Below, piece by piece: positions 14,306-54,205 of a stretch of DNA of 64,000 nt (position 1 is the first letter of the stretch; every line of letters begins with the position of its first letter). A program made the position numbers and the translations under genes. The notes beneath the pieces were generated by a model. It was not told the origin of the DNA, did no database searches, and worked only from the letters and a program-made list of their open reading frames with translations. The stretch comes from Sulfurospirillum multivorans DSM 12446 (GTDB lineage Bacteria > Campylobacterota > Campylobacteria > Campylobacterales > Sulfurospirillaceae). The stretch lies in the NCBI RefSeq assembly GCF_000568815.1, contig NZ_CP007201.1, forward strand, positions 2,737,654-2,801,653. Reading direction: 5' to 3'.

Positions 14306-14356
14306 AAATCATCCCTCTTTTACATGTAATTTAAAAAAAGATACGCTACACTACAA

Positions 14357-14375
14357 ATATGCTTAATATACATAT
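14357..14375. promoter_or_regulatory. ATATGC-N7-ACATAT operator upstream of tupA
   Basis: Inverted repeat ATATGC, seven bases, ACATAT in the tupB-tupA divergent spacer, 27-45 bases before the tupA start. It is one of six matches in the window to ATATGC-N7-GCATAT, all beside tungstate/molybdate or formate dehydrogenase genes. Confidence 0.6.
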
Positions 14376-14401
14376 TCTATTAATCTTAGGAGGATTATTC
14401 A

Positions 14402-17965: not shown

Positions 17966-17981
17966 AAAAACTCCTTTTAAA

Positions 17982-18000
17982 ATATGTTTTTTTTGCATAT
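17982..18000. promoter_or_regulatory. ATATGT-N7-GCATAT operator upstream of wtpA
   Basis: ATATGT, seven T residues, GCATAT; 17-35 bases before the wtpA start and immediately upstream of the ribosome site. Member of the ATATGC-N7-GCATAT family. Confidence 0.6.
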
Positions 18001-18017
18001 TTATACTGACATAAGTT

Positions 18018-18053
18018 GAGAGTCCTTGCAAAATAGACGCTACAAGAACTCTC
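18018..18053 (-). terminator. Hairpin after the ModE-like gene
   Basis: GAGAGTCCTTG (18018-18028) pairs with CAAGAACTCTC (18043-18053) over 11 positions with one G-U. It lies between the ModE-like gene and the wtpA operator, so it probably separates the fdhD-modE transcript from wtpACB. No clear T-run follows. Confidence 0.5.
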
Positions 18054-21434: not shown

Positions 21435-24293
21435 CTACGCTTTTTCGATGCGACATAAGCCGCCCTTAGTTTCAGGAATCTGAGTAATGATGTCATAGCC
21501 ATAGTTAGTGACAGTATTGACACTCTCGCCGCTTGCATACGGTTTCGTTCCTGCTGGGAAATTACCCGTTCTATCTGTTCCTTGAAAATATCCTGCAAAG
21601 TGGAATGGCATAAAGACCATATCAGGAAGAACACTATGAGAGTACTTCGCTTTCACTTTGATTTTGGTACCTTCTGGTGAGTGTACCCACATCATCGCAC
21701 CATTTTTAATGTCGTGCTTAAGCGCTAAATCGGGGTGAATGTCACAGAACATCTCAGGTGTTAAGGCTGCAATGTACTTAGACGCACGGTTTTCGATACC
21801 CGCACCGTTCATCGTGACCAAACGACCTGTCACCATGTTGATTGGGAAATCTTTTGCATAATCTTGCGCACTCTGAACAGAGATATACTTCGTCATAACG
21901 CGGAAGTGATTTGCTTTATCCGGATACGCTGGATATTTGAGCGTCAAATCCGTTCGTGGTGAGTGGAGTGGTTCACGGTGCATCGGGATATGATCTGGGA
22001 AGTTCCAAACAATTGCTCTTGCTTTTGCGTTACCATAAGGACAAAGCCCCGCATCTAATGCTTTTTGAACGATTAGATTAGAGTTATCGACTTTCCAGTT
22101 TGCACCCATCGCTGCTTTTTCTTCTTCCGTGAGTGTAATCCCAAGAACGGCTTCAATGTTAGCTTTGGTAATTTCAGGGTATCCCGCTTCAATTTTAGAG
22201 CCTTTCGGGAAAGAGCCTTTTTCTGCTAAAAGATTCACACCGTCTTTTTCCAAACCGAAGTTATTTCTAAAGCCCATACCGCCTGCACTGACAGGAATGC
22301 TGGTATCGTAAAGGTTTGGTGAACCACCGTGTGTTTTCGTCCAACACGGCCATGGAAGTCCATAATATTCGCCCTTCATTGGTCCCATTCCCGCACCCGT
22401 TACTTCATCAAACATATGCCAGTTATCGGTATGTTTTTTAACGCGCTCAGCCGTCCAGCCTGTTAAGCCGATGGTTTTGATAATACGTGCAATTTCATTG
22501 GTCGCATCTTCTGGCCATGTAAATGCTTTTTTCTCAGGAATCATCTCTAGCTTACCATCTTTAGTCTCTTGCATAAACATAGCTTTGGTATAAAGATCAT
22601 AGAAACCTAAACGCTTTGCAAGTTCAAACATGATGTCTTGATCCGCTTTACTCTCATACAATGGCTCAACAACTTTGTATCTCCATTGAGCACTTCTGTT
22701 GGTTGCAACGACAAGACCACTGGTCTCAAATTGCGTAGCCGCAGGAAGAATAAAGACATTGTCTTTTTTATCGGTTAAGATCGCTGCTTCGTTGACGAAT
22801 GGATCGGCTAAAACGATCAGTTCCAAATTATCAAGTGCTTCTTTGATTTTGGCTTGTTGTGCAATCGACGTAATTCCGTTACCCATAACAACCAAGGCTT
22901 TTAACGTTGTGCCTGCATTTTCAATTTTATCATCACTTTTAACACCTTCAACACCTGCCCACCAACGAGCCAGTGAGAAACCATTTTTAGTCATCCATGA
23001 AGCATCTTTAAACTGAGATACAAGGTACTCATAATCAACACCCCACTGTTTTGCAAAGTATTTCCATGAGCCTTCTGCTAAGCCATAGTATCCTGGAAGA
23101 GAATCTGCTAAACAGCCCATATCGGTTGCACCTTGAACGTTATCGTGACCTCTTAGAATGTTCGTACCGCCACCCGCTTTACCCATATTGCCAAGAGCAA
23201 GTTGAAGAATCGGAGCCATACGTGTATTACTCGTACCAATACTGTGTTGTGTCAAACCCATCGCCCAAATCAAGGTACCAGGACGATTTTTTGCATATAA
23301 CGTTGTAATTTGAATCAATTTTTCAGCAGGAACGCCTGTGACATCCGCAACAAGTTCAGGTGTCCACTTGAGCGCTTCTTCTCTGATTTTTTCCATACCG
23401 AAAACTCGGTCATGAATATACTCTTTATCTTCCCAACCATTTTTGAAGATGATATTAAGCATACCATACATAAATGGAATGTCAGTACCAGGGCGAATTT
23501 GTGCAAAAATATCTGCTTTAGCCGCTGTTTTAGTAAAACGAGGATCAATAACGATCAATTGAGAGTTGTTTCTCTCTTTTGCTTTTAAGAAATGTTGGAA
23601 ACCAACAGGGTGGTTTACCGCTGGATTTGCTCCAAAAATGATAATTGCTTTAGACTTCTGAATATCTCCAAGGGAGTTTGTCATAGCACCATATCCAAAT
23701 GTGTTCGCCACACCGGCGACTGTGGAAGAGTGTCAGATTCTAGCTTGGTGATCTGTGTTATTGGTTCCGTAAAATGCAGCGAATTTTCTAAAATAATACG
23801 CTTGCTCATTACCCATTTTTGCGGAGCCTAAAAATTGAACAGAATCTGCTCCATCTTTTTTCTTAAGATCTGCCAATTTGGTTGCAATGCGGTTAAGTGC
23901 ATCATCCCAACTTAGACGTTTCCATTGACCATTTTCTTTGACCATTGGGTATTTGAGGCGTACTTCTGATCTGACCATATCGATCATATCAGCACCTTTA
24001 CAGCAGTGTCCGCCAAGGCTGATTGGGTGGTCTTGAGCAACTTCTTGACGAACCCATACTCCATTTTGAACTTCTGCGATCACACCACATCCAACGGAGC
24101 ATGATGTACAGATGGTTTTAACTTTCTTAGATCCTGGGAATGGGTTTTTAACCTCTTCCTCTGTTGCGGCGCGTGTCACATTCTCACCAGCAAAACCCGA
24201 AGTTGCGCCAAAGACGCTTGCAACGGCTGCCATTTTGAGGAATGATCTACGACCTACAGTCGTACTTAAAGCACGTTCTGTTGTTTTTTCCAT
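21435..24293 (-). CDS. fdhA: Formate dehydrogenase 1 catalytic subunit, selenoprotein
   Basis: One gene of 952 residues read through an in-frame TGA at 23733-23735 (Sec187). The N-terminal Tat signal GRRSFLKMAA targets it to the periplasm. A [4Fe-4S] site CTSCSVGCGV...CCKG follows. The TGA lies in QARI-U-HSSTVAGVANTFGYG, the exact place of the catalytic selenocysteine of formate dehydrogenases, and the frame continues with typical bis-MGD-binding motifs to the C-terminus. A stem-loop 13-30 bases past the TGA serves as SECIS. A conventional annotation would split it into two pieces. It oxidises formate to CO2 with tungsten or molybdenum. No TTACATGTAA copy occurs in it. Confidence 0.95.
23703..23720 (-). 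promoter_or_regulatory. Bacterial SECIS hairpin of fdhA1
   Basis: On the mRNA, CGCC-GGUGU-GGCG forms the apical stem-loop with a bulged A and a flanking GU/AC pairing. It begins 12 bases after the UGA, the distance needed for SelB to load Sec-tRNA. Loop GGUGU keeps the G-U that SelB recognises. Confidence 0.7.
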
Positions 24294-24599: not shown

Positions 24600-25337
24600 T
24601 TAAACCTCTATCACGTTTTTAGCTTTGTCTGCCTCTTTTTTGGCTTTGTTTTCCGCACGCCTTCGTGCTTCTGCTCCTGAGATAACCTCCACAGGCTTTT
24701 GAACTCTTTCTCTCTCTTTTAAAGGTGGTTTCGCCACTTCAAAATACATACGCTCAAACGCCATAAACGCATTTAACACAATGGCGACAGACTGATACGC
24801 TTTGGACATCGGGTGTTCGTAAACGTTGATGACAAATTCATCCATAAACGGATTAATCACTTCGACAAAAAGGCAATGTTGGATGTATTCATACTCTTTT
24901 CCTCCTTGCATAATGAGCTCGATAAGTTCGTGCATAAAGGTAAAGATAAACCCAACGCTATCTTCATTCTCTTTAAAATGGTTTTCATCGCGTCTGATTT
25001 TGGTTTTGGCTAGGAAGTTTTTAACGGCGAGTCGTTGGTGACCGCTTTCAACGCCTTCGTCATAGTACGAAGCGGTATTGCGAACAACTTTATAGGCAGG
25101 GTTGTGGAAGATGTCATCGTACTCTTGAATCAAGGCAGTTTGCCCACAGGTTTTTAAAAAAGCATGAATCTCTTTGAGCGCTTCACCCGAATTTTCATCC
25201 ATAGGATTTTCAATCATCACTTCAAGTGCTTCATTAATTCCTAAATAACGATCATCCTGTGTTGTAAAAACAAACATTTTGCTCAAAAAACCATAGTAGA
25301 GTGAACGGGCTTTATTAACCGATTCTTTATTTATCAT
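24600..25337 (-). CDS. TorD-type chaperone for formate dehydrogenase 1
   Basis: 245 residues from the native ATG at 25337 (MINKESVNKARSLYYG). All-helical, with the EYDDIFHNP and FMHELIELIM blocks of the TorD/DmsD family, and a charged Lys/Arg/Glu tail from about residue 215. Such chaperones bind the Tat signal of the catalytic subunit until cofactor is loaded. An IS element is inserted one base before this ATG, removing the original ribosome site. The terminal repeat supplies an in-frame ATG at 25358 whose ATGA overlaps the transposase stop, so the protein may now carry seven extra residues (MSFARCL). Confidence 0.85.
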   Translation of the reverse strand: MINKESVNKARSLYYGFLSKMFVFTTQDDRYLGINEALEVMIENPMDENSGEALKEIHAFLKTCGQTALIQEYDDIFHNPAYKVVRNTASYYDEGVESGHQRLAVKNFLAKTKIRRDENHFKENEDSVGFIFTFMHELIELIMQGGKEYEYIQHCLFVEVINPFMDEFVINVYEHPMSKAYQSVAIVLNAFMAFERMYFEVAKPPLKERERVQKPVEVISGAEARRRAENKAKKEADKAKNVIEV

Positions 25338-25354
25338 TAGACATCTTGCAAAAC

Positions 25355-25819
25355 TCATTTGTATTCCACAGCAAAACCACGGTCAAAGTTGATTAATCCA
25401 CATATCAAATTAAAGCGTAGATTGAATCGTTTTCTTCTGTTTCTGTATTTTTGGGTGAGTATCTGAAATGTTTTGATTTTAGCATTCACATGTTCAACAC
25501 ATATTCTAGCACTTGCTTTTTGTCTGTTTTCCTCTTTTTGCTCCTCACTCAAAGGATGAAGTTTGGAGGCTTTATGGGGAATTTGACAATGGCTATGTTC
25601 TTTGGCAATACCCAGATATCCCAAATCAACATAAACACAGGTCTTGGGCATCAAGGGGAGATTAGATTCTTGAAACAGTCTAAAATCATGTGTCGTACCT
25701 TTAGCGGTATGCACACACATAATCCTCTCCTCTTTATCAATCACAATCTGTCCTTTAAGGGTATGACGCTTTTGCTTACCTGAGTAGTACTCTCTTTGCT
25801 TTTTTTGGGTCTTTGACAA
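25355..25819 (-). CDS. IS5-type transposase, C-terminal frame
   Basis: The frame from 25819 carries the second and third catalytic positions (YVDLGYLG Asp and ICVEHVNAK Glu) and the TLKGQIVID block. It is reached from the upstream frame by a -1 shift at a run of seven A on the coding strand (complement of 25800-25806). The stop TGA at 25355-25357 overlaps an ATG that reads into the chaperone gene. Together the two frames give a complete-looking transposase, so this need not be a broken gene. Confidence 0.8.
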   Translation of the reverse strand: MSKTQKKQREYYSGKQKRHTLKGQIVIDKEERIMCVHTAKGTTHDFRLFQESNLPLMPKTCVYVDLGYLGIAKEHSHCQIPHKASKLHPLSEEQKEENRQKASARICVEHVNAKIKTFQILTQKYRNRRKRFNLRFNLICGLINFDRGFAVEYK

Positions 25820-26214
25820 GGCGTTTCTGTCGCATCAATGACAACAAAAGAGAGGGCAACATCACTTTTATAGAGTTCTCTCTTGCTTGGCAATGAAAAT
25901 CTACCAGACTTAATCAACACTTCTTCTACTTCACATACAATCCTTGAAGCCGTTGATTCACTCACACCATAATCAAATCCAATATGTTCAAGGGTGCGAT
26001 ACTCACGATAATAGCCAAGCATCAAAAGTACTTTATTTTCTGGTGAAAGAGATCTCCTCCCTCCTACACCTAATCCTTTTTTACGATTCTCATCGTATTG
26101 CCTAAACACCTCTATCATTGCGTTAAATGTCTCTTCATTAACGCCAATATGGCGCTTAAAATCTTTGGGTTTATGCTTTTGCATTTGTTCATATTTTTTC
26201 ATGCCTCTTGCCAA
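25741..26214 (-). CDS. IS5-type transposase, N-terminal frame
   Basis: 157 residues: an N-terminal helix-turn-helix region (LGYYREYRTLEHIGFDYGVSESTASRIV) followed by FVVIDATETP with the first catalytic Asp. The frame runs past the A7 slippery site and stops shortly after, giving a truncated product that can act as a regulator in IS427-like elements, while frameshifting gives the full enzyme. Confidence 0.8.
   Translation of the reverse strand: MARGMKKYEQMQKHKPKDFKRHIGVNEETFNAMIEVFRQYDENRKKGLGVGGRRSLSPENKVLLMLGYYREYRTLEHIGFDYGVSESTASRIVCEVEEVLIKSGRFSLPSKRELYKSDVALSFVVIDATETPCQRPKKSKESTTQVSKSVIPLKDRL
25800..25806 (-). promoter_or_regulatory. A7 slippery site for -1 frameshifting in the transposase
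   Basis: On the coding strand CCC-AAA-AAA-AGC in frame 0 becomes CAA-AAA-AAG in frame -1, joining RPK with the KKQREYYSGKQKR continuation. Seven A residues match a programmed -1 shift. Confidence 0.7.
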
Positions 26215-26258
26215 GCATTTTTAGTGCCTTTTATTTGAGTTTTGCAAGATGTCTATTT

Positions 26259-26673: not shown

Positions 26674-28686
26674 TTAAAAGGAGTAACGTACGTTCGCGTA
26701 ATAGTTTCGACCTTCTTGCGGATAGCCGTTGTTGTAATAGTAAAACTCATCAAAGAGATTTTTAATACCAACAGCAAGCTCAAGCGCTTTGACAGGTCTA
26801 TACGCAACTCTAATATCTGCTACGGTATACGAACTGCTTTTTTCACTGCCACTTACATTGGAGTAGCGTTCGCCTTCATGCCTGATAATCGGTGTAATAT
26901 CAACCGAATGAATCGGCGAATAGGTCATACTTGCATAATAGCTGTGTTTGGGTGTATCGGTCGTGTATTGAGCATTTGCCGTTTTACTGTCTTCAATTTC
27001 TGCGTCAATATAGGTGTAAGAGAGCGTACTTTTAAGCTGATTGCTCCATAGTGAATCAAGTGTTAGCTCAACACCTTTGTGCTCTTCTTGATCGAAATTT
27101 TGCATCTGTTTACAGTTTGTACCTGTACACCCCAGTGTTGCATCGGTATTGGTTAAACCACTCACTGACGCAATATAATCTTTTGTTTTCGTGTAAAAAA
27201 GTGCTACTTTAGCATGATGATCGTCCACAAATGCCCAGTCACTGCCGACTTCATACGTCGTAGAACGTTCTGCATCCAAGCTAGGATTGAGAATATAATC
27301 TCCAAATTTTGAAGAGTAACGATCTTTCAGTGTTGGCATATTACTCTTTTGAGAGACACTTCCATAAAACATCAGATCTTTCGTCGCATGAAATGTCAGA
27401 ATGGTTTGAGGGTTGAAAGCATCGGAGTCATATTTGGGGAACTCTCCTGCGATGAGTGTTCCCGCACTGTTACGATACTCCGCTTTGGTAATCTCATTTT
27501 TATCGTAACTGCCACCTAATGTCCACGTCAGTGCGTCAGTGAGTTGCCATGAATATTCAGCGCCTAATGACAACGTTTTACTCTCATCTTTAAGATCTGC
27601 ATTAGGAGATTTTGAGCTGATGTCTTTATGATTATCGTATTTTTGGGAAACAGAAAGTTTTAAAAGATGGTTATCAGCGATTTTAATATCCCCTTCGATA
27701 ATGCCACCAAAGGTATGATCATCGTATTCTGAAATCTCACTTACGACATCTTGCGCCCCAGATTGTGGTGTTCCTTTAAAAAGAATTTTGTTGTAAAACT
27801 CATCGTAATACAAACGCGTTTTAAGATAATGTTCCCCAATAGCCGTTTTGGTAATCAAATAATAACTCGTCTTATCCCAGTCTTTCCAATCCCAGTTGCG
27901 ATTATACGCGTTGTTCGTTGTAGTACCTTGTGCCATCGCAAACCACGGTTGTTCTTTCTCACCTCGTTGAGCGATATAATTGAGTGAATATTCATCTGTC
28001 GAATTGGGCGTATAGCCGACTTTGATGTTTATTTTTTTGTCGCCGTACTCTGAATTGGAACGTTTGCGTCCTTCTTGATGCCCTGCTGAATCGTAGTCGC
28101 TTGGAAGTTTATAATAATCTCTTTGCATATTTGAAACGGAGAGTAAGCCGTAGTAAATCTCCTGCTTTGTTCCGATGGTTGCATACTCTTCATAGCCATT
28201 GCCACTAAATACACCAGCGCCTACTTCGCCCTCAAGCTCTTTGGTCGGTTTTTTGGTAATAAGGTTAATCGCCCCACCCATTGTATTCGCCCCATACATC
28301 GGAGAAACATACCCTTTGGAAACATCTATTTCACCAATATCATAGGTTTTGAACCGCGCCAAATCGATATTGTGATCATACGGAACGTAAATGGGAATAC
28401 CGTCGATATAAATAGGTACGCGTGTACTCGAAAAGCCACGCACACGCACTTTTGACTCACCTCTAGCCCCTGTGTAATCGCTATAAACACTCGGCACACT
28501 TTGAAGTGCATCAACAACCGTTTTTGCTTCGCTCTCTTTAATTGTTTCCGTTGACACTACCTCAACGCTCGGATTTTGACTGATATCTTTTTCCGATGTT
28601 ACCTCTATTTTTCCTAACTCATACGTCTCACCCATCAACACGGATGCTGTGATCAACGAGAGCGCCACGCCAATTTTAAATTTCAT
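26674..28686 (-). CDS. TonB-dependent receptor, left arm of ModE-linked island
   Basis: 670 residues: signal peptide (about 19), TonB-box-like ELGKIEVTSEK, plug with RVRGFSSTRVPIYIDGIPIYVP and GANTMGGAINLITKKP (residues 75-170), then a barrel ending in ...NVRYSF. A CTGTNC pair near residue 522 may close an outer loop. It is the last gene of a set running exbB-exbD-tonB-globin-binding protein-permease-ATPase-receptor, and has its own ModE-type box 29-52 bases upstream. I infer it imports molybdate, tungstate or a chelate of them; the plug resembles generic siderophore/cobalamin receptors, so iron cannot be excluded from sequence. Confidence 0.85.
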   Translation of the reverse strand: MKFKIGVALSLITASVLMGETYELGKIEVTSEKDISQNPSVEVVSTETIKESEAKTVVDALQSVPSVYSDYTGARGESKVRVRGFSSTRVPIYIDGIPIYVPYDHNIDLARFKTYDIGEIDVSKGYVSPMYGANTMGGAINLITKKPTKELEGEVGAGVFSGNGYEEYATIGTKQEIYYGLLSVSNMQRDYYKLPSDYDSAGHQEGRKRSNSEYGDKKINIKVGYTPNSTDEYSLNYIAQRGEKEQPWFAMAQGTTTNNAYNRNWDWKDWDKTSYYLITKTAIGEHYLKTRLYYDEFYNKILFKGTPQSGAQDVVSEISEYDDHTFGGIIEGDIKIADNHLLKLSVSQKYDNHKDISSKSPNADLKDESKTLSLGAEYSWQLTDALTWTLGGSYDKNEITKAEYRNSAGTLIAGEFPKYDSDAFNPQTILTFHATKDLMFYGSVSQKSNMPTLKDRYSSKFGDYILNPSLDAERSTTYEVGSDWAFVDDHHAKVALFYTKTKDYIASVSGLTNTDATLGCTGTNCKQMQNFDQEEHKGVELTLDSLWSNQLKSTLSYTYIDAEIEDSKTANAQYTTDTPKHSYYASMTYSPIHSVDITPIIRHEGERYSNVSGSEKSSSYTVADIRVAYRPVKALELAVGIKNLFDEFYYYNNGYPQEGRNYYANVRYSF

Positions 28687-28714: not shown

Positions 28715-28738
28715 CATAATATTTTATTTTATATAACG
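28715..28738. promoter_or_regulatory. ModE-type box upstream of left-arm receptor
   Basis: CATAATAT-N8-ATATAACG. The E. coli ModE operator has CGTTATAT-N8-ATATAACG-like architecture; the right half is exact here. Located 29-52 bases before the receptor start. Confidence 0.65.
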
Positions 28739-28773: not shown

Positions 28774-29562
28774 CTACGCTTTCGTGGTATGAACAAACGA
28801 TGGAATGCAGACAGGATAGCCGCAAACCGTCTGTTTAAGCTCGATGTTTGTGTGGTAAAGCTCGTTAATAAGCTCTTCCGTAATCGTTTTACATGTAAGC
28901 CCATGCGCTAAGATATGCCCGTCTTTAAGCGCATAGGTGTAACCGCCCAGCATGAGCGCATGTTCGGGGAAATGGGTTGATTTTAAAAAGGTGTAACCCT
29001 CTTTGGAGAGCTTCATAATTGTCTCCAAAAGGCGCAGTTGATTGCCATAATCCAGCCCCGAAACGGGTTCGTCCATGACCAAGATTTTTGCCCCTTGCGC
29101 TAAGGAACGAGCGATTAAAACCAGCTGTTTTTCGCCACCACTCAGCGTTTGAAAGGTGCGTTTCTCCAGATGCCCAATGCCCAGTCGCTCCATCGCCACA
29201 CGCGCTAAGTCCCTGTCCGTTTTACTTGGTTTTTAAAACCATGACTCAAAAGCGATGCGCCCCATCATGACAATATCCAGAGCGCAAAACGCAAACGCGA
29301 CCTGCGTACTTTGAGGAACATAGCTTACATGTAAAGCGCGTTCTTTAATGGAATAGCGCTGTAAAGGCTTTCCTTTTAAGATCACCTCACCGCTTTTCGG
29401 GCTTAAAAGTCCTAAAAAAAGTTTCATCAAGGTACTTTTTCCCGTACCATTAGGCCCTAGAAGTGAGACGATGGAGCCCTCATCAATGTGAAGATCCACC
29501 CCTTGCAAAATCGGTGTGCTGTTATAAGAAAAGTAGAGATTTTCAGCGCTGTAAAAACTCAT
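28774..29562 (-). pseudogene. MolC/BtuD-type ABC ATPase with in-frame stop
   Basis: The ATPase starts at 29562 (ATGA overlap with the permease stop) with Walker A GPNGTGKST (residues 36-44) and reads to GRIAFESWF, where codon 110 is TAA (29233-29235). The same frame then continues without a break as KPSKTDRDLARVAMERLGIGHLE, signature LSGGEKQ and Walker B ILVMDEP, to a stop at 28774. So this is a single nonsense codon, not a frameshift, in an otherwise intact family member. Either the gene is newly inactivated, or there is readthrough, or the base call is wrong. The intact protein would power the BtuC-like permease next to it. MolC of H. influenzae is a molybdate-importing relative. Confidence 0.8.
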
Positions 29563-30575
29563 GCAAATCCTTTTTTCGCATTTTTCAGCGCAAAAACAAA
29601 GATAGGAATACCAATAAGCGACGTCGCAATCCCAATGGGAATCTCCACGCTCATCGATGTACGACATAAGGTATCGACGATGATGAGAAAGGTCGCTCCT
29701 AAAAGCGCGCACATTGGAAGCAGAACGCGGTTATCTGCTCCCACTAAAAAGCGCGCAATATGCGGTATGATAAGCCCTACCCAGCCGATCATTCCAGCAA
29801 CGACAACGGTCAGAGTGCTGAGCAACGTAGCCAGTAAAATGGCACTGTTGCGCACCCACACCACACGTACTCCCAGAGCCTTGGCATCTTCATCGCCAAG
29901 ACTTAAAACATTGAGGTATTTGCCCATTAAAGACAGAGCGATGGTGCTAAAAATCAGAGGGATGGCAACGCCAGAGAGCGTTTTCATATCGACCGCACTG
30001 AAAGAGCCCATCAGCCAGTAAACAATCGTCGGAAGTTTGTTGTATGGATCAGCGACATACTTCACCGTTGAAAGCAGTGCAGAAAAAAGCGAGCTAGAGA
30101 TGACACCACCAAGGACTAAAAGAATCGTCTGTGAGCCGCTTCTACCGTAAATCTTCGCCACACCAAGGGCGACTAAAACGGCTACAAACCCAAAAGTAAA
30201 CGAGAAAAGCTGCACGCCAAACCAACTCTCAGAGATCATAATGCCAAGTGCCGCACCAAACGAAGCGCCTGCAAGTACGCCTAAAATACCAGGCGACACC
30301 AAAGGATTCACAAACATCGCTTGAAATGCCCCACCCGAAACAGAAAGTGCAGCGCCGACTAAAATAACCGCTAAAATGCGTGGTAAACGAATGTCAAACA
30401 CAATGTTAGAAAGCAGCATCACCTCATTGGGAGCTGTGCCAATGTTCAACACTTTCCATAACAGTAGTTGCGTAAGCGTGCTAAGGTCAATCTCATAGCG
30501 CCCAAGAGCAAGCGAAATGAGTAGACTTGCCCCCAACATAACGATCATCATGCCAAAAAGAAACGAATTTTTCAT
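29559..30575 (-). CDS. BtuC/FecD/MolB-type ABC transporter permease
   Basis: 338 residues with about ten membrane helices, the FecCD family layout. Conserved blocks include RLPRILAVILVGAALSVSGGAFQAMFVNPLVSPGILG, LVLGGVISSSLFSALLS and GMIGWVGLIIPHIARFLVGADNR. Relatives import cobalamin, iron-siderophores or, in the MolBCA case, molybdate. It overlaps the binding-protein stop and the ATPase start by four bases each, so the three are a coupled unit, and only one permease is encoded in the island although there are two binding proteins. Confidence 0.9.
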   Translation of the reverse strand: MKNSFLFGMMIVMLGASLLISLALGRYEIDLSTLTQLLLWKVLNIGTAPNEVMLLSNIVFDIRLPRILAVILVGAALSVSGGAFQAMFVNPLVSPGILGVLAGASFGAALGIMISESWFGVQLFSFTFGFVAVLVALGVAKIYGRSGSQTILLVLGGVISSSLFSALLSTVKYVADPYNKLPTIVYWLMGSFSAVDMKTLSGVAIPLIFSTIALSLMGKYLNVLSLGDEDAKALGVRVVWVRNSAILLATLLSTLTVVVAGMIGWVGLIIPHIARFLVGADNRVLLPMCALLGATFLIIVDTLCRTSMSVEIPIGIATSLIGIPIFVFALKNAKKGFA

Positions 30576-31594
30576 AGCACGCCTGAAATGTGATGGATCT
30601 GCTTATCGGTGAGATCAATGTTCAAAAAGAGTTTATAAAACGCTCGCATCTCTTGCGCAAACTGCTCAGAATTAGGTGTATTGTAAAAGATATGCGTTAG
30701 CCACCTAACACCCAAAAGCCGCATGAAAGAGGGTGGTCGGTCGATCCAATTAAACGGCACTTTGGGTACGAGAAAGATTTTGCCTTCTTTGATGGCTTTG
30801 ATGGAATGCCATCTTGCATCGCTTTTGACTTTCTCAAAAAATTCTCTCTCTTGCGCTACAATGATGTCAGGATTGTACAAAATAACCTGTTCTAAAGAGA
30901 CCTTTTCAAGCCCAAGTCCACTTTTAGTCTGGCAGAGATGCGGATTAATACCGCCTGTAAATTTGATCGCTTCGTAGTGAAACGACTGGTCACACTCGGT
31001 CGCAAGTCCATCCGCACCCTCAGCATAATAGACAACAGGGCGTTTTGTGGCGTTTTGTTGCACGATTGCTTTGGTTTTTTCCAGTGCGGCACTGGCATAG
31101 TCTGAGAGTACTTTTGCACGAGGCTCTCTGTTTAAAACCTCGCCAAAGAAAAGGTAGGCTTTGGGCAGACGCTCAACACTCTCTAAATCCACATTGATAC
31201 TTGGGATTTTGCTACTCTCAAACAGGTACTGCGCCAACTGACTCGAAGCATCGTTGTTCCATAAAAAGACGACATCTGGATGCAAGGAAAGCAAAGTTTC
31301 GCGGTTCATGCTGTTCCCTCCTCCCTGAAGACCTCCCACAACGGGAAGTGCCATAAAACGGGAATCAAGCATATTGGACGATTCGTTATTGCCACGGGCA
31401 TGGTTGAAATTAAGCCCCACAATCAAGGAAGCATCAATCGTATAGATCATATAAGTCGAAGGTGGCGATGTGCCAAACACTTTGGTGATGACATCAGGGA
31501 TTTCAACGTTTTGACCACCCATATCGACGATTTCTCTGGCATATGCACTGCTTAAAAGAAGTAATACACTTCCAATAACTCCTAAAATTCGCAT
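30572..31594 (-). CDS. Periplasmic binding protein of FepB/BtuF/MolA type, left arm
   Basis: 340 residues from the ATG at 31594 (AAGGA five bases ahead), with a signal peptide ending SSAYA. Two-lobed family-III binding fold: PDVVFLWNNDASS, VEYAEG-like VVYYAEGADGLATECDQSFHYEA, and NWIDRPPSFMRLLGVRWL. The TECDxSFHxE stretch and the DRPPSFMR block are shared with the right-arm protein at 37667. A perfect 16-bp hairpin with T-run separates it from the upstream globin gene, so it may be made at a lower level or from a second promoter. Inferred ligand: molybdate, tungstate or a complex. Confidence 0.85.
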   Translation of the reverse strand: MRILGVIGSVLLLLSSAYAREIVDMGGQNVEIPDVITKVFGTSPPSTYMIYTIDASLIVGLNFNHARGNNESSNMLDSRFMALPVVGGLQGGGNSMNRETLLSLHPDVVFLWNNDASSQLAQYLFESSKIPSINVDLESVERLPKAYLFFGEVLNREPRAKVLSDYASAALEKTKAIVQQNATKRPVVYYAEGADGLATECDQSFHYEAIKFTGGINPHLCQTKSGLGLEKVSLEQVILYNPDIIVAQEREFFEKVKSDARWHSIKAIKEGKIFLVPKVPFNWIDRPPSFMRLLGVRWLTHIFYNTPNSEQFAQEMRAFYKLFLNIDLTDKQIHHISGVL

Positions 31595-31618
31595 CTTTAT
31601 CCTTACATGTAAAAAATT

Positions 31619-31652
31619 AGAGTTTTTGCAAAACCAGTTTTGCAAAAACTCT
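31619..31652 (-). terminator. Strong intra-operon hairpin (terminator or attenuator)
   Basis: AGAGTTTTTGCAAAAC and its exact complement form a 16-bp stem with a 2-base loop. On the minus strand it is followed by AATTTTTTA. It sits between the globin stop, which it overlaps, and the binding-protein gene. Confidence 0.7.
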
Positions 31653-32199
31653 ATGAAAAGAGTCCAAACTCAGCTTTTATATCTTCATACAAAATACGTT
31701 TCATCGGCACACTCGTGCTTCGACGATTCACCATGCGCATCGAAAAAGGCTCGATCCAGTTCCAAAACTCCCCGATCAACGCTTTGGGAAAATCAAGATC
31801 GTGCAGGGTCTGCTTGTACGCCAGCAGCCACACAACTCTTGCCTCATCATCGATGGCAAATGGGGCATGTGTGCGACACAAAGAGGGTGGACCATAGCTG
31901 AAGGTATAGGTTTTTTCACCACCCAACGCTTGAATGAGAAAATGGCTCGCCTTGGTTACACCTTCCCTAAAATGAGCCTCATCGGTCGGGTACATCTGCG
32001 CAACAGCACTTTTTTGAAGCAAGCGGTGGTGATGCAACACAATGTTATGAATCGTTTCTGCCCCTATTTTTGTTAAAAAATCAGGTTTGGGCAAAATAAT
32101 CGCAGGTAGCGGTGCTTTTAAATTGATAGGGCTCCATTGAAGGCTTTCGCTCTTTTTAGCGATTGAAGGTTTATGAAGAAAATGATGACCATTGCACAT
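31651..32199 (-). CDS. Truncated-haemoglobin-like protein, left arm
   Basis: 182 residues. From about residue 40 it follows the group-2 truncated globin pattern: YPTDEAHFREGVTKASHFLIQALGG, then TFSYGPPSLCRTHAPFAIDDEARVVWLLAYKQTL, with His111 at the proximal haem position (canonical LRxRHxPF). The B-helix positions usually FY are His-His here (LHHHRLL, residues 55-61), so the haem pocket would be unusual. A 40-residue N-terminal extension has no counterpart in the family. It lies between tonB and the binding protein; the paralogue at 34968 has the same position relative to the other receptor. Confidence 0.75.
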   Translation of the reverse strand: MCNGHHFLHKPSIAKKSESLQWSPINLKAPLPAIILPKPDFLTKIGAETIHNIVLHHHRLLQKSAVAQMYPTDEAHFREGVTKASHFLIQALGGEKTYTFSYGPPSLCRTHAPFAIDDEARVVWLLAYKQTLHDLDFPKALIGEFWNWIEPFSMRMVNRRSTSVPMKRILYEDIKAEFGLFS

Positions 32200-32208
32200 G
32201 AAATTTCC

Positions 32209-32886
32209 TTAGGATTTGAGCTTAAAAACAACGGGAATTGCGATCTCTAGTGCCTCTTTGGGTGGAAACTCAAAAGGTGTCGCATCCAAAACGGCATCGA
32301 TGGCATTACGATCTAAAACCGCTTTGCCACTTGACTTTGCAATTTTAATAGACGAGGCATCAACCGTTCCATTGGCATGAATTAAAAATTGCACGACCGC
32401 CTCGCCCTCCACGCCCATCTTTTTAGCCATAGAGGGGTAACGAAGACTCTCTTGGATTTTTTGCCTTACTTTGGCAAGATAGAGGGAGAGCAGATCATCG
32501 CTTTGGCGCGCAGCAGGTGCGCTAACCGCTTGCTCTTGTGCTTTTGCGGGTGCTATTGCTTCTACACGTTGCTCGACAAAAGGCTCAAGCGAAGGTGCCG
32601 ATGTGACAACCTGTTTTGGCGTAGGCACAGCTTTAACGATCTCTTTTGGCACTTTTTTTTCGGGTTTTTTCACTACGATTGGCTCTGGTGGTGGCGTTAT
32701 ATCGTGTTTGATCTCTTCATCTACTGGCATAGGTTTTGGCTCATCCAAAAAACTCACTTGCGTGACGATAAACTCGCGCATGGCGGGTTTTGGTATCATC
32801 ATACTTCCCATAAAAAGGGCATACGCAATCGTTACATGTAAAAAGAGTGTTCCAAATGAAGCGACGAAAAAATGTGATGCTTTCAC
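32209..32886 (-). CDS. tonB: TonB-like energy transducer, second copy
   Basis: 225 residues from a GTG at 32886 that overlaps the exbD TGA (GTGA) and has AAAGGG ahead; a longer ATG reading would overlap exbD by 58 bases. N-terminal membrane anchor, Pro/Lys-rich spacer (PPPEPIVVKKPEKKVPKE), and a C-terminal TonB domain with LRYPSMAKKMGVEGEAVVQFLI. It belongs to the second ExbBD-TonB set, presumably dedicated to the receptors of the island. Confidence 0.88.
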   Translation of the reverse strand: MKASHFFVASFGTLFLHVTIAYALFMGSMMIPKPAMREFIVTQVSFLDEPKPMPVDEEIKHDITPPPEPIVVKKPEKKVPKEIVKAVPTPKQVVTSAPSLEPFVEQRVEAIAPAKAQEQAVSAPAARQSDDLLSLYLAKVRQKIQESLRYPSMAKKMGVEGEAVVQFLIHANGTVDASSIKIAKSSGKAVLDRNAIDAVLDATPFEFPPKEALEIAIPVVFKLKS

Positions 32887-33290
32887 GCGCCACCCTTTGT
32901 TGTCTGAATCGCAAAGGTGCTGATGCGGTGTTTTTTGCACAGATCGATCACTTTAACCACGTATTCAAACGGTGTTTTTGCGTCACTTCGCAGTAAAATA
33001 TGAGGCTCAGACGCACTGATTTGGGCAATTTTTGCATCCAAATCTTCGAGTGAAACCGCTACATCGTCGTAGTAAAGCTCACCCGATTCGTTCAAGGAGA
33101 GCGTAATCGGCTTTTGCTCATCTTTACGATTTTCAGCATTGGACGCTTGTGGAAGCGTAAGCGGAATTTTACCTTGGGTCACAAATGTAGCTGTGACCAT
33201 AAAAATGACCAAGATAACGAGGACAATGTCCACAAAAGGGGTCATATTGATCTCGGCAATATCGCTCTCATACACAGGTTTACGCTTCAT
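32883..33290 (-). CDS. exbD: ExbD family protein, second copy
   Basis: 135 residues. Conserved start AEINMTPFVDIVLVILVIFMVT with the proton-path Asp in FVDIV, then the periplasmic domain (ILLRSDAKTPFEYVVKVID). It overlaps exbB by 11 bases. Subunit of the TonB-energising motor of the island. Confidence 0.9.
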   Translation of the reverse strand: MKRKPVYESDIAEINMTPFVDIVLVILVIFMVTATFVTQGKIPLTLPQASNAENRKDEQKPITLSLNESGELYYDDVAVSLEDLDAKIAQISASEPHILLRSDAKTPFEYVVKVIDLCKKHRISTFAIQTTKGGA

Positions 33291-33726
33291 CGAGCTGTGC
33301 TTCTTTGTGCGTTAAAATGACTTTAACCCGTCTGATGAAATAATTGTAAGCGATAACGCAGGGAATCGCGACAAAAAGCCCCGTCGCGGTGGCAATCAAC
33401 GCTTCAGAGATACCTTGCATGATTGGTTGTACATCAAACGCATTGGAAGCGCCAATCGTATGAAACGCTTGTATAATGCCCAAAACGGTTCCAAAAAGCC
33501 CTATAAAAGGGGCGTTATTGCCAAAGGTGGCTAAAATGCCCAAACGCGCTTCAAGGCTAAGACGCAACGTATAATAATCCATACTTTGATACTTTTTTTG
33601 AATCACACTAAACGCTAAAAGACGCTCTATCATCACCCCAACTGCTAACACACTCATGGCGACCAATACCCACAACACGGGGTCGATCCCTAACAGGGCA
33701 AACGATAAAAGTTTTTCACTCAACAT
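33280..33726 (-). CDS. exbB: ExbB family protein, second copy
   Basis: 148 residues, three membrane helices, with the ExbB/TolQ signature GNNAPFIGLFGTVLGIIQAFHTIG and ATATGLFVAIPCVIAYNYFIRRV. First gene of the left arm, divergent from modE. Its leader contains a 39-base dyad (33765-33803), and a ModE-type box lies at 33841-33864. Confidence 0.9.
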   Translation of the reverse strand: MLSEKLLSFALLGIDPVLWVLVAMSVLAVGVMIERLLAFSVIQKKYQSMDYYTLRLSLEARLGILATFGNNAPFIGLFGTVLGIIQAFHTIGASNAFDVQPIMQGISEALIATATGLFVAIPCVIAYNYFIRRVKVILTHKEAQLDEA

Positions 33727-33840: not shown

Positions 33841-33864
33841 CGTAATATACTTAGCAATACAACG
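33841..33864. promoter_or_regulatory. ModE-type box in the exbB-modE divergent spacer
   Basis: CGTAATAT-N8-ATACAACG, two mismatches to CGTTATAT-N8-ATATAACG. It can control exbB (minus) and modE (plus), allowing autoregulation. Confidence 0.55.
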
Positions 33865-34005: not shown

Positions 34006-34779
34006 ATGTTAGAAGCACGTCTTTGGATGAAAAAAAGCGATAAAAATTTTCTTGGCAAAGGGCGCATTGAGCTTTTAGAAAACATTCGAGAGTTTGGTTC
34101 CATCCATGCAGCCGCCAAAGCCATGAAGATGAGCTACAAAGCCGCATGGGATTCGGTGGATGCCATGAACAACCTCTCAGAGATTCCTTTGGTTCAAAAA
34201 ACAAGTGGCGGCAAAGGCGGCGGGGGGACGATTATCACCCCAAAAGGCGAAGAGGTCATCGCGGCATTTCACAATTTACAAGCCAAACATCAGCAGTTTT
34301 TAGATCTTTTTGCCAACAGTGATGACCTGCTTACCATCGTTCAAACCCTAAGCCGGCTCTCGTTAAAACTGAGTGCTCGCAACCAACTGATAGGTACTAT
34401 CAGCGCGATTAGCGAAGATGCGGTCAATGTTGCGATTGAGCTGACCATCAAAGCTGCTGATAAAATTTATGCGAGTATCACCAAAAACAGTTACCAAGAG
34501 CTTGGGCTTCACTTAGGAGAGAGTGCCATTGCGATTATTAAAGCAAGCTCCGTGCTTCTTTCAAAAACCAAGCCTACCATCGCGTGTGAAAACCTTCTCA
34601 AAGGCACGATCATCCAAATCCTCAGCGACACGTCCAACACCGAAGTGACGCTGGAATTGGAGAGTAAAAGTACCATCACCGCGACCATTGCCAACGATGC
34701 GTTTGAGCCACTTCATCTCAAAATCAACGAAGAGGCGTATGCTTTTTTCAAAGCATCCAATGTTATTTTAGGCGTTTAA
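34006..34779 (+). CDS. modE: Molybdate-responsive regulator ModE, full length
   Basis: 257 residues from the ATG at 34006 (AGAGGA ahead). N-terminal winged helix (GKGRIELLENIREFGSIHAAAKAMKMSYKAAWDSVDAMNN) with the Gly-rich wing SGGKGGGGTIITPKG, then two tandem Mop/TOBE domains (about residues 117-182 and 188-255; SARNQLIGTISAI and ACENLLKGTIIQI starts) that bind molybdate or tungstate. It normally represses uptake genes when metal is sufficient. It stands at the centre of the island between the two arms and is the natural owner of the CGTTATAT-N8-ATATAACG boxes. Confidence 0.92.
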   Translation: MLEARLWMKKSDKNFLGKGRIELLENIREFGSIHAAAKAMKMSYKAAWDSVDAMNNLSEIPLVQKTSGGKGGGGTIITPKGEEVIAAFHNLQAKHQQFLDLFANSDDLLTIVQTLSRLSLKLSARNQLIGTISAISEDAVNVAIELTIKAADKIYASITKNSYQELGLHLGESAIAIIKASSVLLSKTKPTIACENLLKGTIIQILSDTSNTEVTLELESKSTITATIANDAFEPLHLKINEEAYAFFKASNVILGV

Positions 34780-34896: not shown

Positions 34897-34920
34897 CATT
34901 ATGTTTTTATTTATATAACG
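34897..34920. promoter_or_regulatory. ModE-type box upstream of right-arm globin
   Basis: CATTATGT-N8-ATATAACG, right half exact. Lies 48-71 bases before the globin start, placing the globin-receptor-binding protein-radical SAM genes under ModE. Confidence 0.65.
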
Positions 34921-34967: not shown

Positions 34968-35540
34968 ATGCCTGTTATGATCGATGGAATTAAAGTTCAG
35001 TTATTCAGTGAGTGCGACACAAACGCCCCTTTCCCCGTTGCCGATGAGAGCCCAAGACGAGCGCACCCCAAGATCGATATGATCTTCCCCGAACTCTTTT
35101 TCCCTTCCAATAGAACCTATTTAGCTCTTGGTGAAGCGAAAATTCGTGAAGTGGTCAAAGTCCACCATGAGCTTGTACGCCACAGTAAAATTGGACATCT
35201 TTATCCGCAAGATGAAGCTGCTTTTATCGCGGCTACGAGCAAAATCGAAGACTTTTTTGTGCAGATGCTTGGAGGCAAAGACCTCTACACGAGCGTGCAA
35301 GGTCATCCCAAACTTCGCGACCGCCATTTTCCTTTTGAAGTGACCGAAACAGGGCGTGACATCTGGCTAATGAGCTTTCGCAAAGCGCTCAAACAGTGCG
35401 CCGTTCCTAAAGAATTTTTGCCTGAAATTTGGAATTGGGTTGAATCCATCTCGATTCGTATGATTAACAGACGGACAAGTATGGAGATGGTTAAACGCTA
35501 TCCGTATGAGAGTATCCACTCCTATTTTGATGCTGAATAA
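34968..35540 (+). CDS. Truncated-haemoglobin-like protein, right arm
   Basis: 190 residues. The group-2 truncated globin pattern is clear: LYPQDEAAFIAATSKIEDFFVQMLGG, DLYTSVQGHPKLRDRHFPFEV with His120 as proximal haem ligand, then RDIWLMSFRKAL. As in the left-arm paralogue the B9-B10 positions are His-His (residues 66-67) where most members have Phe-Tyr, and there is a 45-residue N-terminal extension. It precedes the TonB receptor by 36 bases and is the first gene after the ModE box. Haem binding and any role in metal release or redox sensing are inference. Confidence 0.78.
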   Translation: MPVMIDGIKVQLFSECDTNAPFPVADESPRRAHPKIDMIFPELFFPSNRTYLALGEAKIREVVKVHHELVRHSKIGHLYPQDEAAFIAATSKIEDFFVQMLGGKDLYTSVQGHPKLRDRHFPFEVTETGRDIWLMSFRKALKQCAVPKEFLPEIWNWVESISIRMINRRTSMEMVKRYPYESIHSYFDAE

Positions 35541-35576: not shown

Positions 35577-37655
35577 ATGAAGAAAACCCCGCTTTCATGG
35601 ATTGTTGCTATGAGTTTGTGTTCTGCGTGTGCGGCACAAAGTGTTACCTTAGAACCCGTTGCGGTTGAAGGAGAAAAAGAGACAGCTACCTCAATGAGTC
35701 TTAGTGATGCCAAAACAGTCATTAACACCCAAGAGCTTTCAAGCCAACCTACCACGCTCAATGAAGCACTGAGCGATACCTTTTTTGTCAACTTCAAAAA
35801 GGCAGGTGATTACAACTCGGAGCCTTACATCAGGGGGCGAGGTGTGAATGGCGTGCCCATTTATATCGAAGGAATGCGCATCAATGCCGCACACCCCGAT
35901 TCGACCAATCTGTTTACGATGATAGACGCACAAGAAGTGGATGTTTACAGAGGGGCGAATGGCGCTAATGTCGGCATGGGAGCGATGAACGGTGCAATCG
36001 TCATTAAACTTAAAGAGCCACAATTTGGCACGACGGATGAATTTGAAGAGTCGAGTTTCATCAATGCCAAAACATCGCTTTTTTCACAAACAGGTTACAC
36101 CACGGGCATTGGAACAACCCTTTACAACCAATTTGTGAACTTCTCCCTCAGTGGAAGCATAAGCGAATACAATAACTACAGCAATGGAGGAGGAGATGAA
36201 GTCCTCCATTCTGATTCGGACAGCAAACATTACGCGATCTCTACCGCGGTGAAAACAGGCGATGACAGCTATATTTACGGTCGTTTTATCAAAGATAAAA
36301 GCAGCTCAGGCGATCCACTCTCACGCTACCAACAAAGTGGTGTTTGGAACTATACCGATCATCCGAATGATGATGCTAAAACCTATTTTGTTGGCTTTAA
36401 AAAAGGGGAGTGGTATGGCTTAAGTGACATTGATTTCCAAATCTTTAAAAATGATTTACACTACGCTGTCAACACCAAGAAAGAGACTTCAGTACCTTAT
36501 GCAACAGAGCTTTTTAGAGAAAGCAACACTAAAGGAGCCAAACTATCAGGTAAAAAAGAGTTGGATGAGCACCAAACGCTCTCCTTGGCAATGACCTACT
36601 CCAAAATGGAGATCACCAACGGTGTAAGAAATTGGAATACCACCACCAATACATGGGGCGACTGGACGAGCGCTATGGGGATTAAAGGTGGGGATTACAC
36701 AGACTTTGGTATCCAACTAGCAGATGATATGAAATACGATAAGGCATTCTACACCCTTGCCATCGGTTACGATAATGTCAAACGCAATGTCACTTCCAAT
36801 GTCAATACAACTAAACTAGACTCCTTAATCCCCGAAGCGCTTGATGCTCTGATTCAAAAAACCAACACCGATGAACGCGATAATCTTCTCTCCATGAGTG
36901 CCAAAGCAGGCTATGAGATTTCATCTGCGTTTGTACCCTACATTAAACTTTCTAACGCCGAGAGAACCCCTTATTTTAACGAAGCGTATGGCAATAATCC
37001 AAGCAATGGAAGCCAGATTCCCAACCAAACGCTTGGGAACGAAAAAGTATGGGATATTGACGTGGGGATGGATGGTAAATATGAGCGTTTTTACTACACC
37101 TCAGCGCTTTACTACCAACGCTACTCTGATTACATCGAGCTTGTTAAAACAGGCTACCTGACCACGGGTGGACTTCCTATCAAACGTTACATCAACCTAG
37201 ATGAAGCGATTATTTACGGTGCTGAAGCGATGGCAGGCTATGGACTAGGGAATGATCTTTTTGTGGAAGCGGCGTATCTGTACACACACGGTCAAAACGA
37301 AGATGATGACACACCTTTAGCCTTTATCGCTCCTCAAAAACTGACGCTTTCTTTAGCGCAAAAGCGCTCAAAGGGTCTTAGTTGGAAACTTGAAGAGGTC
37401 TTTGTCGATAATCAAGACCGCATCTCCAGCGTCAATGGCGAAATCGCAACGCCGGGCTATTCACTCACCAATGCTTCGATGAGTTATGGATTTTCAAAAC
37501 TAGGCATTCTTAAAAATGCCGTCGTAAGTTTTGAGCTCAATAATATCTTCGATAAATCGTATCGTGAACACCTTGATAAAGTCTCTTCAACAGCATGGTA
37601 TTTACCTGACAACGCGGGTATCAACGGTGTTTTATCGCTTAAAGCGGCATTTTAA
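35577..37655 (+). CDS. TonB-dependent receptor, right arm
   Basis: 692 residues with a signal peptide (WIVAMSLCSACAAQS), a TonB-box-like TLEPVAVEGEK, a plug with EPYIRGRGVNGVPIYIEGMRINAAHP and MGAMNGAIVIKLKEP, and a barrel ending ...GVLSLKAAF. It differs clearly from the left-arm receptor, so the two may take up different substrates or chelates. Followed 11 bases later by its binding protein. Confidence 0.87.
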   Translation: MKKTPLSWIVAMSLCSACAAQSVTLEPVAVEGEKETATSMSLSDAKTVINTQELSSQPTTLNEALSDTFFVNFKKAGDYNSEPYIRGRGVNGVPIYIEGMRINAAHPDSTNLFTMIDAQEVDVYRGANGANVGMGAMNGAIVIKLKEPQFGTTDEFEESSFINAKTSLFSQTGYTTGIGTTLYNQFVNFSLSGSISEYNNYSNGGGDEVLHSDSDSKHYAISTAVKTGDDSYIYGRFIKDKSSSGDPLSRYQQSGVWNYTDHPNDDAKTYFVGFKKGEWYGLSDIDFQIFKNDLHYAVNTKKETSVPYATELFRESNTKGAKLSGKKELDEHQTLSLAMTYSKMEITNGVRNWNTTTNTWGDWTSAMGIKGGDYTDFGIQLADDMKYDKAFYTLAIGYDNVKRNVTSNVNTTKLDSLIPEALDALIQKTNTDERDNLLSMSAKAGYEISSAFVPYIKLSNAERTPYFNEAYGNNPSNGSQIPNQTLGNEKVWDIDVGMDGKYERFYYTSALYYQRYSDYIELVKTGYLTTGGLPIKRYINLDEAIIYGAEAMAGYGLGNDLFVEAAYLYTHGQNEDDDTPLAFIAPQKLTLSLAQKRSKGLSWKLEEVFVDNQDRISSVNGEIATPGYSLTNASMSYGFSKLGILKNAVVSFELNNIFDKSYREHLDKVSSTAWYLPDNAGINGVLSLKAAF

Positions 37656-37666: not shown

Positions 37667-38689
37667 ATGCGTTTTACTCTTGTTTTTTTACTGATGTTTG
37701 TTTCGCTTTTTGCCAGTGAATCGCGCACGTTTGTTGATATTTCAGGAAAAACGATCACGTTGCCTGAACCTATCACGCGCATTTATGGCTCAGCGCCACC
37801 GATTAGTTTTATGATTTACGTCATTGATGATGCACCTCTCATTGGTGTCAATTTTCCACAAACCAACCAAGACAACGCCAATGGCGATAAATTTTTGTCC
37901 AAACATTTTATGAGCCTTCCCATTTTAGGCGGTTGGCATGGTAATAACACGCCCAATCTTGAAGCCATCATCGCCGCAAAACCTGATGTGATCATCACAT
38001 GGGACACGCCGCTTCTGAATGAAAAAACGGCGAAAGATTTGGCGCGTATCAACATCCCTGCACTGAAAGTGAACATCGATGATTCAGCCAATTACCCCGA
38101 AGTCTTTCGTTATCTTGGTAAAGTCATGAACAAAGAGGAGCGCGCCAATGCGCTTGCAGCCATGGCGCAAACCTATCTGGACGAGCTAAAAATCTTCGTG
38201 GCAAGCGTTCCTCTAAATGAACGTACCAAAGTCTATTACGCAGAAGGTCCTTTTGATTTGCAAACCGAGTGCGATGTCTCGTTTCACTCCGAACCTTTGA
38301 TGCTTGCAGGGGGAAATTTAGTCCATAAATGTGTCCAAAACAGCGTCATCGGCATGCAAGAGGTCAGTTTTGAGCAGGTTTTGAGCTATGCACCGGAGGT
38401 GATCATTGTCCAAAGTCCTGCGTTTTATAAAACGATCTTTGAAGATAAAAAATGGGCGATGCTCAAAGCGGTACAAACCAAACATGTCTATCTGATCCCA
38501 AAATCTCCGTTTAACTGGACAGATCGCCCACCTTCTTTTATGCGCATCATTGGCGCACACTGGATCGCAAGCAAGCTCTATTCTACTCGTTATCCGTACA
38601 AAATTCAAGAAAAAGTCAGAGCGTTTTACCAACTCTTTTTTGGTGTCTCGCTCAGTGATAAAGAGCTTAAAACCTATTTTGATCTTTAA
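37667..38689 (+). CDS. Periplasmic binding protein of FepB/BtuF/MolA type, right arm
   Basis: 340 residues, signal peptide FTLVFLLMFVSLFASES. Shares with the left-arm protein the blocks KVYYAEGPFDLQTECDVSFHSEP and NWTDRPPSFMRIIGAHWIA. No permease or ATPase follows, so it probably docks on the left-arm permease at 29559-30575. Located between its receptor and the radical SAM fusion gene in one operon. Confidence 0.85.
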   Translation: MRFTLVFLLMFVSLFASESRTFVDISGKTITLPEPITRIYGSAPPISFMIYVIDDAPLIGVNFPQTNQDNANGDKFLSKHFMSLPILGGWHGNNTPNLEAIIAAKPDVIITWDTPLLNEKTAKDLARINIPALKVNIDDSANYPEVFRYLGKVMNKEERANALAAMAQTYLDELKIFVASVPLNERTKVYYAEGPFDLQTECDVSFHSEPLMLAGGNLVHKCVQNSVIGMQEVSFEQVLSYAPEVIIVQSPAFYKTIFEDKKWAMLKAVQTKHVYLIPKSPFNWTDRPPSFMRIIGAHWIASKLYSTRYPYKIQEKVRAFYQLFFGVSLSDKELKTYFDL

Positions 38690-40547: not shown

Positions 40548-40571
40548 CGTTATAGTTGCATGTATATAACG
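40548..40571. promoter_or_regulatory. ModE-type box upstream of the methyltransferase
   Basis: CGTTATAG-N8-ATATAACG, one mismatch to the palindromic consensus and the best match in the window. Lies 17-40 bases before the methyltransferase start. Confidence 0.75.
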
Positions 40572-41523: not shown

Positions 41524-41733
41524 CTACTCTTTGATGAGTAAAACGCTAACCGCTTTGACCACGACTTTGACTTTGTCACCCTCTTTAAGACCCATCTCTT
41601 CAATCGATTCCATCGTCATCACTGAGCTCATTTTATTGGCAATAATGTCGCCTACATCGACTTGGCACATCACTTCGCCTTTTTTAATCTTTGTAACCGT
41701 TGCCGTGATCTCATTTCTAGCGCCGTATTTCAT
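41524..41733 (-). CDS. mop: Molbindin-type Mop protein (single TOBE domain)
   Basis: 69 residues made of one Mop/TOBE fold: ARNEITATVTKIKKGEVMCQVDVGDI at the N-terminus and GLKEGDKVKVVVKAVSVLL at the C-terminus, with the AxN start shared with ModE's Mop domains. Molbindins assemble into hexamers that store molybdate or tungstate in the cytoplasm. It lies just outside the right arm of the island, convergent with the methyltransferase. No ModE-type box was seen upstream. Confidence 0.9.
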   Translation of the reverse strand: MKYGARNEITATVTKIKKGEVMCQVDVGDIIANKMSSVMTMESIEEMGLKEGDKVKVVVKAVSVLLIKE

Positions 41734-54181: not shown

Positions 54182-54205
54182 CATTATATATTTAATTATA
54201 TAGCG
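54182..54205. promoter_or_regulatory. ModE-type box upstream of formate dehydrogenase 2 Fe-S gene
   Basis: CATTATAT-N8-ATATAGCG, near the palindromic consensus. It is 97-120 bases before the Fe-S gene and 86-109 before the divergent binding-protein gene, so the target is one or both. Confidence 0.5.

Follow-up and report, generated by a model that had tools for sequence, protein, structure and literature searches.

Interruption of the ATPase gene

A recent nonsense mutation, created by a single base substitution, appears to disable the ATPase of a MolBC-like importer in the sequenced strain of Sulfurospirillum multivorans, a reading to which we assign a probability of roughly three in four. 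The gene is located on the minus strand at 28774-29562 of the window, i.e., the whole stretch of 64,000 nucleotides that was analysed. It encodes a MolC/FhuC-type ABC ATPase and is classified as a pseudogene with an in-frame stop based on translation, Pfam, orthologues, and alignment, and on a structure match obtained via the nearest orthologue. Translation of the 262-codon frame revealed exactly one internal stop, which bears out the original observation of a TAA at codon 110 (29233-29235, minus strand) in an otherwise open frame: the protein sequence begins with MSFYS, is interrupted between ESWF and KPSKTDRDLA, and ends with HTTKA at the terminal stop. The start of the gene overlaps the stop of the adjacent permease gene by 4 bases.

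Translation and the list of open reading frames delimit an N-terminal fragment of 109 codons (29236-29562, minus strand), which harbours the Walker A motif GPNGTGKST (residues 36-44) and the Q-loop glutamine (84). In the same frame, the signature LSGGE (140-144), Walker B ILVMDE (160-165), the D-loop SGLD (168-171), and the H-loop histidine (197) follow downstream of the stop; signature, Walker B, and H-loop are contained in a C-terminal remnant of 141 codons that is open from a GTG (28774-29199, minus strand). That these motifs are intact on both sides of the stop had been claimed beforehand and holds, since their residues are invariant across 16 aligned copies, except for positions 37 and 40 of Walker A, which vary. 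The Pfam domain ABC_tran spans the stop (residues 19-167). Since the two halves align without a break to a single 262-aa family, with 97% identity in the nearest genome (G006), the continuation of the frame across the stop is not a product of chance. At the DNA level, the gene is present as a single copy in the 3,175,729-bp, one-contig genome.

Ribosomes would be expected to stop after 109 residues and to release a product with Walker A and without signature, Walker B, and H-loop. Such a fragment presumably lacks ATPase function and would leave the inner-membrane importer, composed of one FecCD permease, binding proteins, and the ATPase, without its motor, so that this MolBC-like system should be inactive in the strain. 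The remaining genes of the cluster should still be expressible, because the ATPase gene is the last cistron of the operon and receptor 1 downstream of it has a putative promoter box of its own.

Orthologues and age of the stop

The genus search covered 24 Sulfurospirillum genomes, namely this one and 23 others. An ATPase orthologue (at least 69% identity) was found in 16 of them, this one included, and none of the other 15 copies contains an internal stop. The codon of the orthologues, proposed earlier as a check, is a sense codon in 15 out of 15 cases: Gln in six, among them the five closest, Lys in seven, and Ala in two. Thus the stop is private to this genome among the 24 searched. Compared to the nearest relatives, codon 110 differs by one base substitution and the alignment has no gap; the two most distant copies carry one extra residue three codons past codon 110. 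The event would accordingly be a single substitution to TAA from a sense codon, which in the closest relatives encodes Gln.

Comparison to the nearest genome gave a dN of 0.014, a dS of 0.36, and a dN/dS of 0.04 for the ATPase gene. In a comparison of six close species across 260 codons, 17 synonymous codons are private to the window copy, versus a single private amino-acid change plus the stop, a pattern that suggests continued selection on the remainder of the gene. Neutral evolution along 10% of the branch would leave no more than one amino-acid change with a probability of 0.03-0.09, and along 15% with a probability of 0.003-0.018, the ranges reflecting the transition bias assumed. Neutral evolution is thus confined to at most approximately 10-15% of the ATPase branch, so that either the stop arose recently, selection still acts on the sequence, or the base is incorrect. 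With just one private amino-acid change in the ATPase, the interval is too recent for relaxed selection after the stop to be seen.

In the syntenic 72 kb of G006, 69 ORFs were called, of which 56 have a window counterpart with at least 75% identity. A genuine internal stop occurs in only one of these 56 comparable genes, the ATPase gene itself. Three other window genes were flagged, two due to stops upstream of their own start and one due to a stop at the next-to-last residue. Comparison of the island genes with G006 revealed no other cassette gene with an internal stop, and wider decay of the operon was rejected for this reason; it also means that no second lesion backs the reading as a decaying gene. 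The absence of a luciferase-like gene (see below) might have been such a lesion, but was discounted, since five other genomes that carry an ATPase orthologue lack this gene as well. Among the matches listed from up to 5000 plasmid records, all relatives of the ATPase are distant (<60% identity).

Alternative explanations of the stop

Recent mutation, readthrough of the stop, and a sequencing error had originally been offered side by side. Recent mutation is supported by the 15 sense codons in 15 orthologues, the single substitution, and the conserved frame; readthrough lost its footing, and an error is possible. In the latter case a base-call or assembly error would conceal a living strain whose codon 110 is sense and whose ATPase functions. 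We regard this as unlikely, albeit with a chance that deserves mention. In its favour, the gene is strongly conserved and free of other lesions, and all 15 orthologues are intact. Against it, the difference found here is a substitution and not a difference in run length, as is typical of homopolymer errors. Furthermore, the assembly consists of one 3.18 Mb contig, and 55 of the 56 comparable window genes lack a genuine internal stop, so that stop-making errors are rare in this stretch. The base was probably called correctly.

Three ways by which a functional ATPase might be rescued have little prospect even when taken together. Readthrough or suppression of the stop would have to yield enough full-length ATPase, and is very improbable. 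Near-cognate tRNAs misread UAA at a low level in bacteria, and the conserved downstream frame would fit; however, UAA is an efficient terminator, and the recency of the stop accounts for the conservation equally well. As 0 out of 15 orthologues carry a stop at this place, there is no conserved recoding device, and programmed recoding at a conserved stop was not found. No UAA-reading tRNA was detected among at least 45 tRNA genes (RF00005, 150 of 221 candidates scored; ARAGORN at their loci). At the loci of the 45 RF00005 matches, ARAGORN reported no anticodon for UAA, UAG, or UGA, and a suppressor tRNA was rejected on this basis. At gathering scores, nothing in the window matched an Rfam family, which does not favour readthrough either. 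A similarly slight chance is given to a protein in two fragments, in which translation restarts at a downstream GTG or ATG (29199 and 29193, respectively) and the halves assemble. The 141-codon remnant is indeed open from the GTG at 29199, and a purine-rich stretch lies approximately 11 bases upstream of it. Yet the break interrupts the nucleotide-binding domain itself, the residues of the restart region are common to the relatives and reveal no adaptation, and the product of a restart at this GTG would be a half without Walker A; we know of no natural split of this kind. Least credible of all, and close to negligible, is rescue by frameshifting at TTTTAAAAA. An A/T run does surround the stop, and the flank had been called slippery, but the frame is identical before and after the stop, and a single frameshift would lose it instead of rescuing the gene. 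Because the zero frame continues past the TAA and no orthologue has a length change at codon 110, slippage was rejected and the slippery flank is not relevant here.

Replacement of the ATPase by a paralogue was also considered and rejected. The genome contains four FecCD matches, one of them weak, and the three outside the island are each located near an ATPase match of their own. The nearest paralogous ATPase of the genome has 39% identity over residues 7-187. The statement that the island has only one permease proved correct for the FecCD type; other permeases of molybdate/tungstate type are situated at 13.6-16.1 kb in the window. Considering all alternatives, the most fitting description of the event is a nonsense mutation, recent and of an ordinary kind, in an importer that the strain can do without.

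Gene organisation of the island

The ATPase gene is the last cistron of a same-strand series of ExbB-, ExbD-, and TonB-like genes, a globin gene, a binding protein gene, the FecCD permease gene, and the ATPase gene, all on the minus strand. The ExbB-like gene (33280-33726) is the first gene of the operon, followed by the ExbD-like (32883-33290) and the TonB-like gene (32209-32940), all three of which were named from sequence with the aid of a homologue search. Family searches assigned 31651-32199 to a truncated-globin-type protein (globin 1). Periplasmic binding protein 1 (30572-31594, with an ATG at 31594) and the FecCD-type permease (29559-30575) were identified by family and structure searches. 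The start of binding protein 1 in the ORF list extends to 31645, and the structure query covered 30572-31597 with one extra leading residue. Downstream of the ATPase gene, family search revealed TonB-dependent receptor 1 (26674-28686, minus strand).

In the nearest relative, a gene encoding a luciferase-like monooxygenase (L109:2734-3768) is present that is absent from the window between binding protein 1 and globin 1 (31594-31651). Orthologues of this monooxygenase (at least 65%) occur in 10 out of 24 genomes. The gap in the window contains a perfect inverted repeat of 15+2+15 nucleotides (31620-31651).

Divergent from the ExbB-like gene, a ModE-like regulator with two Mop/TOBE stretches is encoded on the plus strand (34006-34779, start in the ORF list 33925). 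It is followed on the same strand by truncated-globin-type protein 2 (globin 2, 34968-35540), TonB-dependent receptor 2 (35577-37655), periplasmic binding protein 2 (37667-38689), a radical SAM protein fused to a periplasmic-binding-protein domain (38735-40516), and a methyltransferase-like protein (40588-41355) whose best NCBIfam scores are below cut-off, all from family searches. For a cytoplasmic enzyme, a fusion of this kind is unusual. On the minus strand, a 69-aa ORF (41524-41733), possibly a molbindin, weakly resembles the Mop region of the regulator (E 3e-5).

Regulator and palindromes

The regulator scores above the cut-off for Mop (112 versus 55 bits), but just below that for ModE_repress (96.6 versus 98.5 bits) and far below that for the full ModE model (169 versus 369). 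Regulator (at least 64% identity) and ATPase occur together in 16 out of 24 genomes and are both lacking in seven, whereas the regulator alone is found in one (G009). In nine out of ten relatives inspected the regulator adjoins the ExbB-like gene; the tenth case is an 8-kb contig.

Pattern matching revealed a ModE-box-like palindrome, CGTTGTAT-N8-ATATTACG, upstream of the ExbB-like gene (33841-33864), and further ModE-box-like palindromes before TonB-dependent receptor 1 (28715-28738), before globin 2 (34897-34920), and upstream of the methyltransferase-like gene (40548-40571). Their recurrence in relatives was judged by eye. The pattern has 13 matches, five places being counted on both strands, versus 2.56 expected, a comparison that is partly circular as these same promoters had supplied the pattern. 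With an E. coli consensus, 12 matches were obtained versus 2-6 in six block shuffles, whereas a narrower palindrome pattern gave no match. Outside the island, another ModE-box-like palindrome is located at 54182-54205 between two divergent genes (52403-54085 and 54291-55454).

Importer type and putative substrate

The adjacent arrangement of FecCD permease, ABC ATPase, and Peripla_BP_2 binding protein genes on one strand is that required of a MolBCA-type importer, except that the ATPase is not complete due to the TAA at codon 110. With the nearest orthologue as query, the best solved match of the ATPase is HI1470 (E 3.9e-36), and that of the permease is HI1471 (MolB, E 9.3e-65). For binding protein 1, 4pag ranks first (3.5e-74), followed by 4ovk and, in third place, HI_1472 (MolA, 1.8e-13). 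Molybdenum or tungsten is the likely metal, judged from the ModE-like regulator, the molbindin-like ORF, and the palindromes. Heme or siderophore import was considered since the best NCBIfam models of the ATPase are those of heme, F420-0, corrinoid, and Fe-dicitrate ATPases, and was rejected because all of these, the best 25 of 188 models, are below their curated cut-offs.

It is tempting to speculate, although we consider it rather doubtful, that the island serves ModE-controlled, TonB-energised import of organically bound molybdenum or tungsten. Such a system could combine two receptors, several binding proteins (one of them fused to radical SAM), one MolBC-like pump, and two globins, and the luciferase-like monooxygenase found in 10 of the 24 genomes could help to release the metal. 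If this were true, the sequenced strain would be a natural knock-out of such a pathway. In the titles and beginnings of abstracts searched, no description of a molybdenum or tungsten uptake island of this kind in Sulfurospirillum was found, and six nearby locus tags gave no literature mention.

Further importers and possible loss of the cassette in relatives

Approximately 11-16 kb from the ATPase gene, family searches identified two further importers with full-length frames, a tungstate importer comprising TupC, TupB (both minus strand), and TupA (plus strand; 12579-15235), and a WtpB-, WtpC-, and WtpA-type tungstate/molybdate importer (15271-18031, minus strand). TupA, TupB, and WtpA are above the NCBIfam cut-offs, and TupC, WtpB, and WtpC are below. 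Loss of the MolBC-like system would be tolerated because ModE-controlled uptake of molybdate/tungstate (or a chelate) by it probably runs parallel to the intact Tup and Wtp-type importers; redundancy is thus presumed to be the reason. At the syntenic place in G006, no match to the Wtp DNA was found, nor does the G006 genome contain a WtpA-like match. Of the 16 genomes that encode the ATPase, nine also have a WtpA-like gene, and the ATPase is uninterrupted in eight of the nine. Presence of Wtp together with loss of the ATPase is consequently no rule of the genus, and redundancy permits the loss without compelling it.

In G009 (L168:11500-13660), receptors, binding proteins, permease, and ATPase are absent from the syntenic 20 kb, whereas the regulator and the methyltransferase-like gene are kept. 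G008 has an internal stop in the exbB frame and a frameshift in globin 2 (L112:5526-5969 and 3703-4273). On the basis of these two genomes, the island may have been lost repeatedly. In a more distant metagenome-assembled genome, an ATPase homologue is split over two frames (L036:2377-3127).

Further features of the window

An insertion sequence (25335-26257) with two overlapping transposase ORFs immediately precedes the formate dehydrogenase chaperone gene, and the overlap of the ORFs suggests a programmed frameshift. Four further copies with 99-100% identity occur in the genome (five in total), and the nearest relative has no counterpart at this place. In PMC7755780, the transposase SMUL_2876/2877 is assigned to five loci in S. 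multivorans versus two in strain N. FdhD, FdhI2, FdhB2, FdhA2, and FdhX1 are given as SMUL_2870-2875 in PMC4585668, and the gene order in the window is the same. Both catalytic formate dehydrogenase genes (21435-24293 and 48460-51297) are split into two ORFs of the same frame, probably due to a selenocysteine codon. A 747-aa sensor-type ORF (8351-10594) corresponds to two ORFs in the nearest genome (G006 2652909-2655161).

Significance and comparison with known systems

As one recent nonsense mutation, the stop by itself is of small importance. Studies of metal acquisition in this dehalogenating model organism should take into account that the importer is probably non-functional in the strain sequenced. 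It is the surrounding island that deserves attention, and its function could be tested in relatives with an intact ATPase.

Among known importers, MolBC-A of Haemophilus influenzae (HI1470-HI1472) is described in PMC4031551 as a type II low-affinity molybdate importer whose binding protein also binds tungstate. According to the same paper, it works parallel to ModBC-A, and its deletion left uptake at low molybdate unaffected. The window cluster resembles this system in that HI1470 and HI1471 are the best matches of ATPase and permease and in that both genomes contain a parallel molybdenum/tungsten importer. In contrast to the H. influenzae system, TonB-ExbBD-like genes, TonB-dependent receptors, globins, and a ModE-like regulator are added, the ATPase is interrupted, and the substrate is inferred. 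With the FhuC, FecE, and BtuD ATPases of siderophore, heme, and B12 importers, the window system shares the best NCBIfam models and a permease of the FecCD family; however, its ATPase is below the cut-offs for the best 25 of 188 models, and the neighbourhood points to molybdenum or tungsten. The lesion as such is similar to other nonsense-mutation pseudogenes of bacteria, in which a conserved gene with intact orthologues is interrupted by one internal stop. Compared to these it has nothing special, and represents a young case with no second lesion in the gene.
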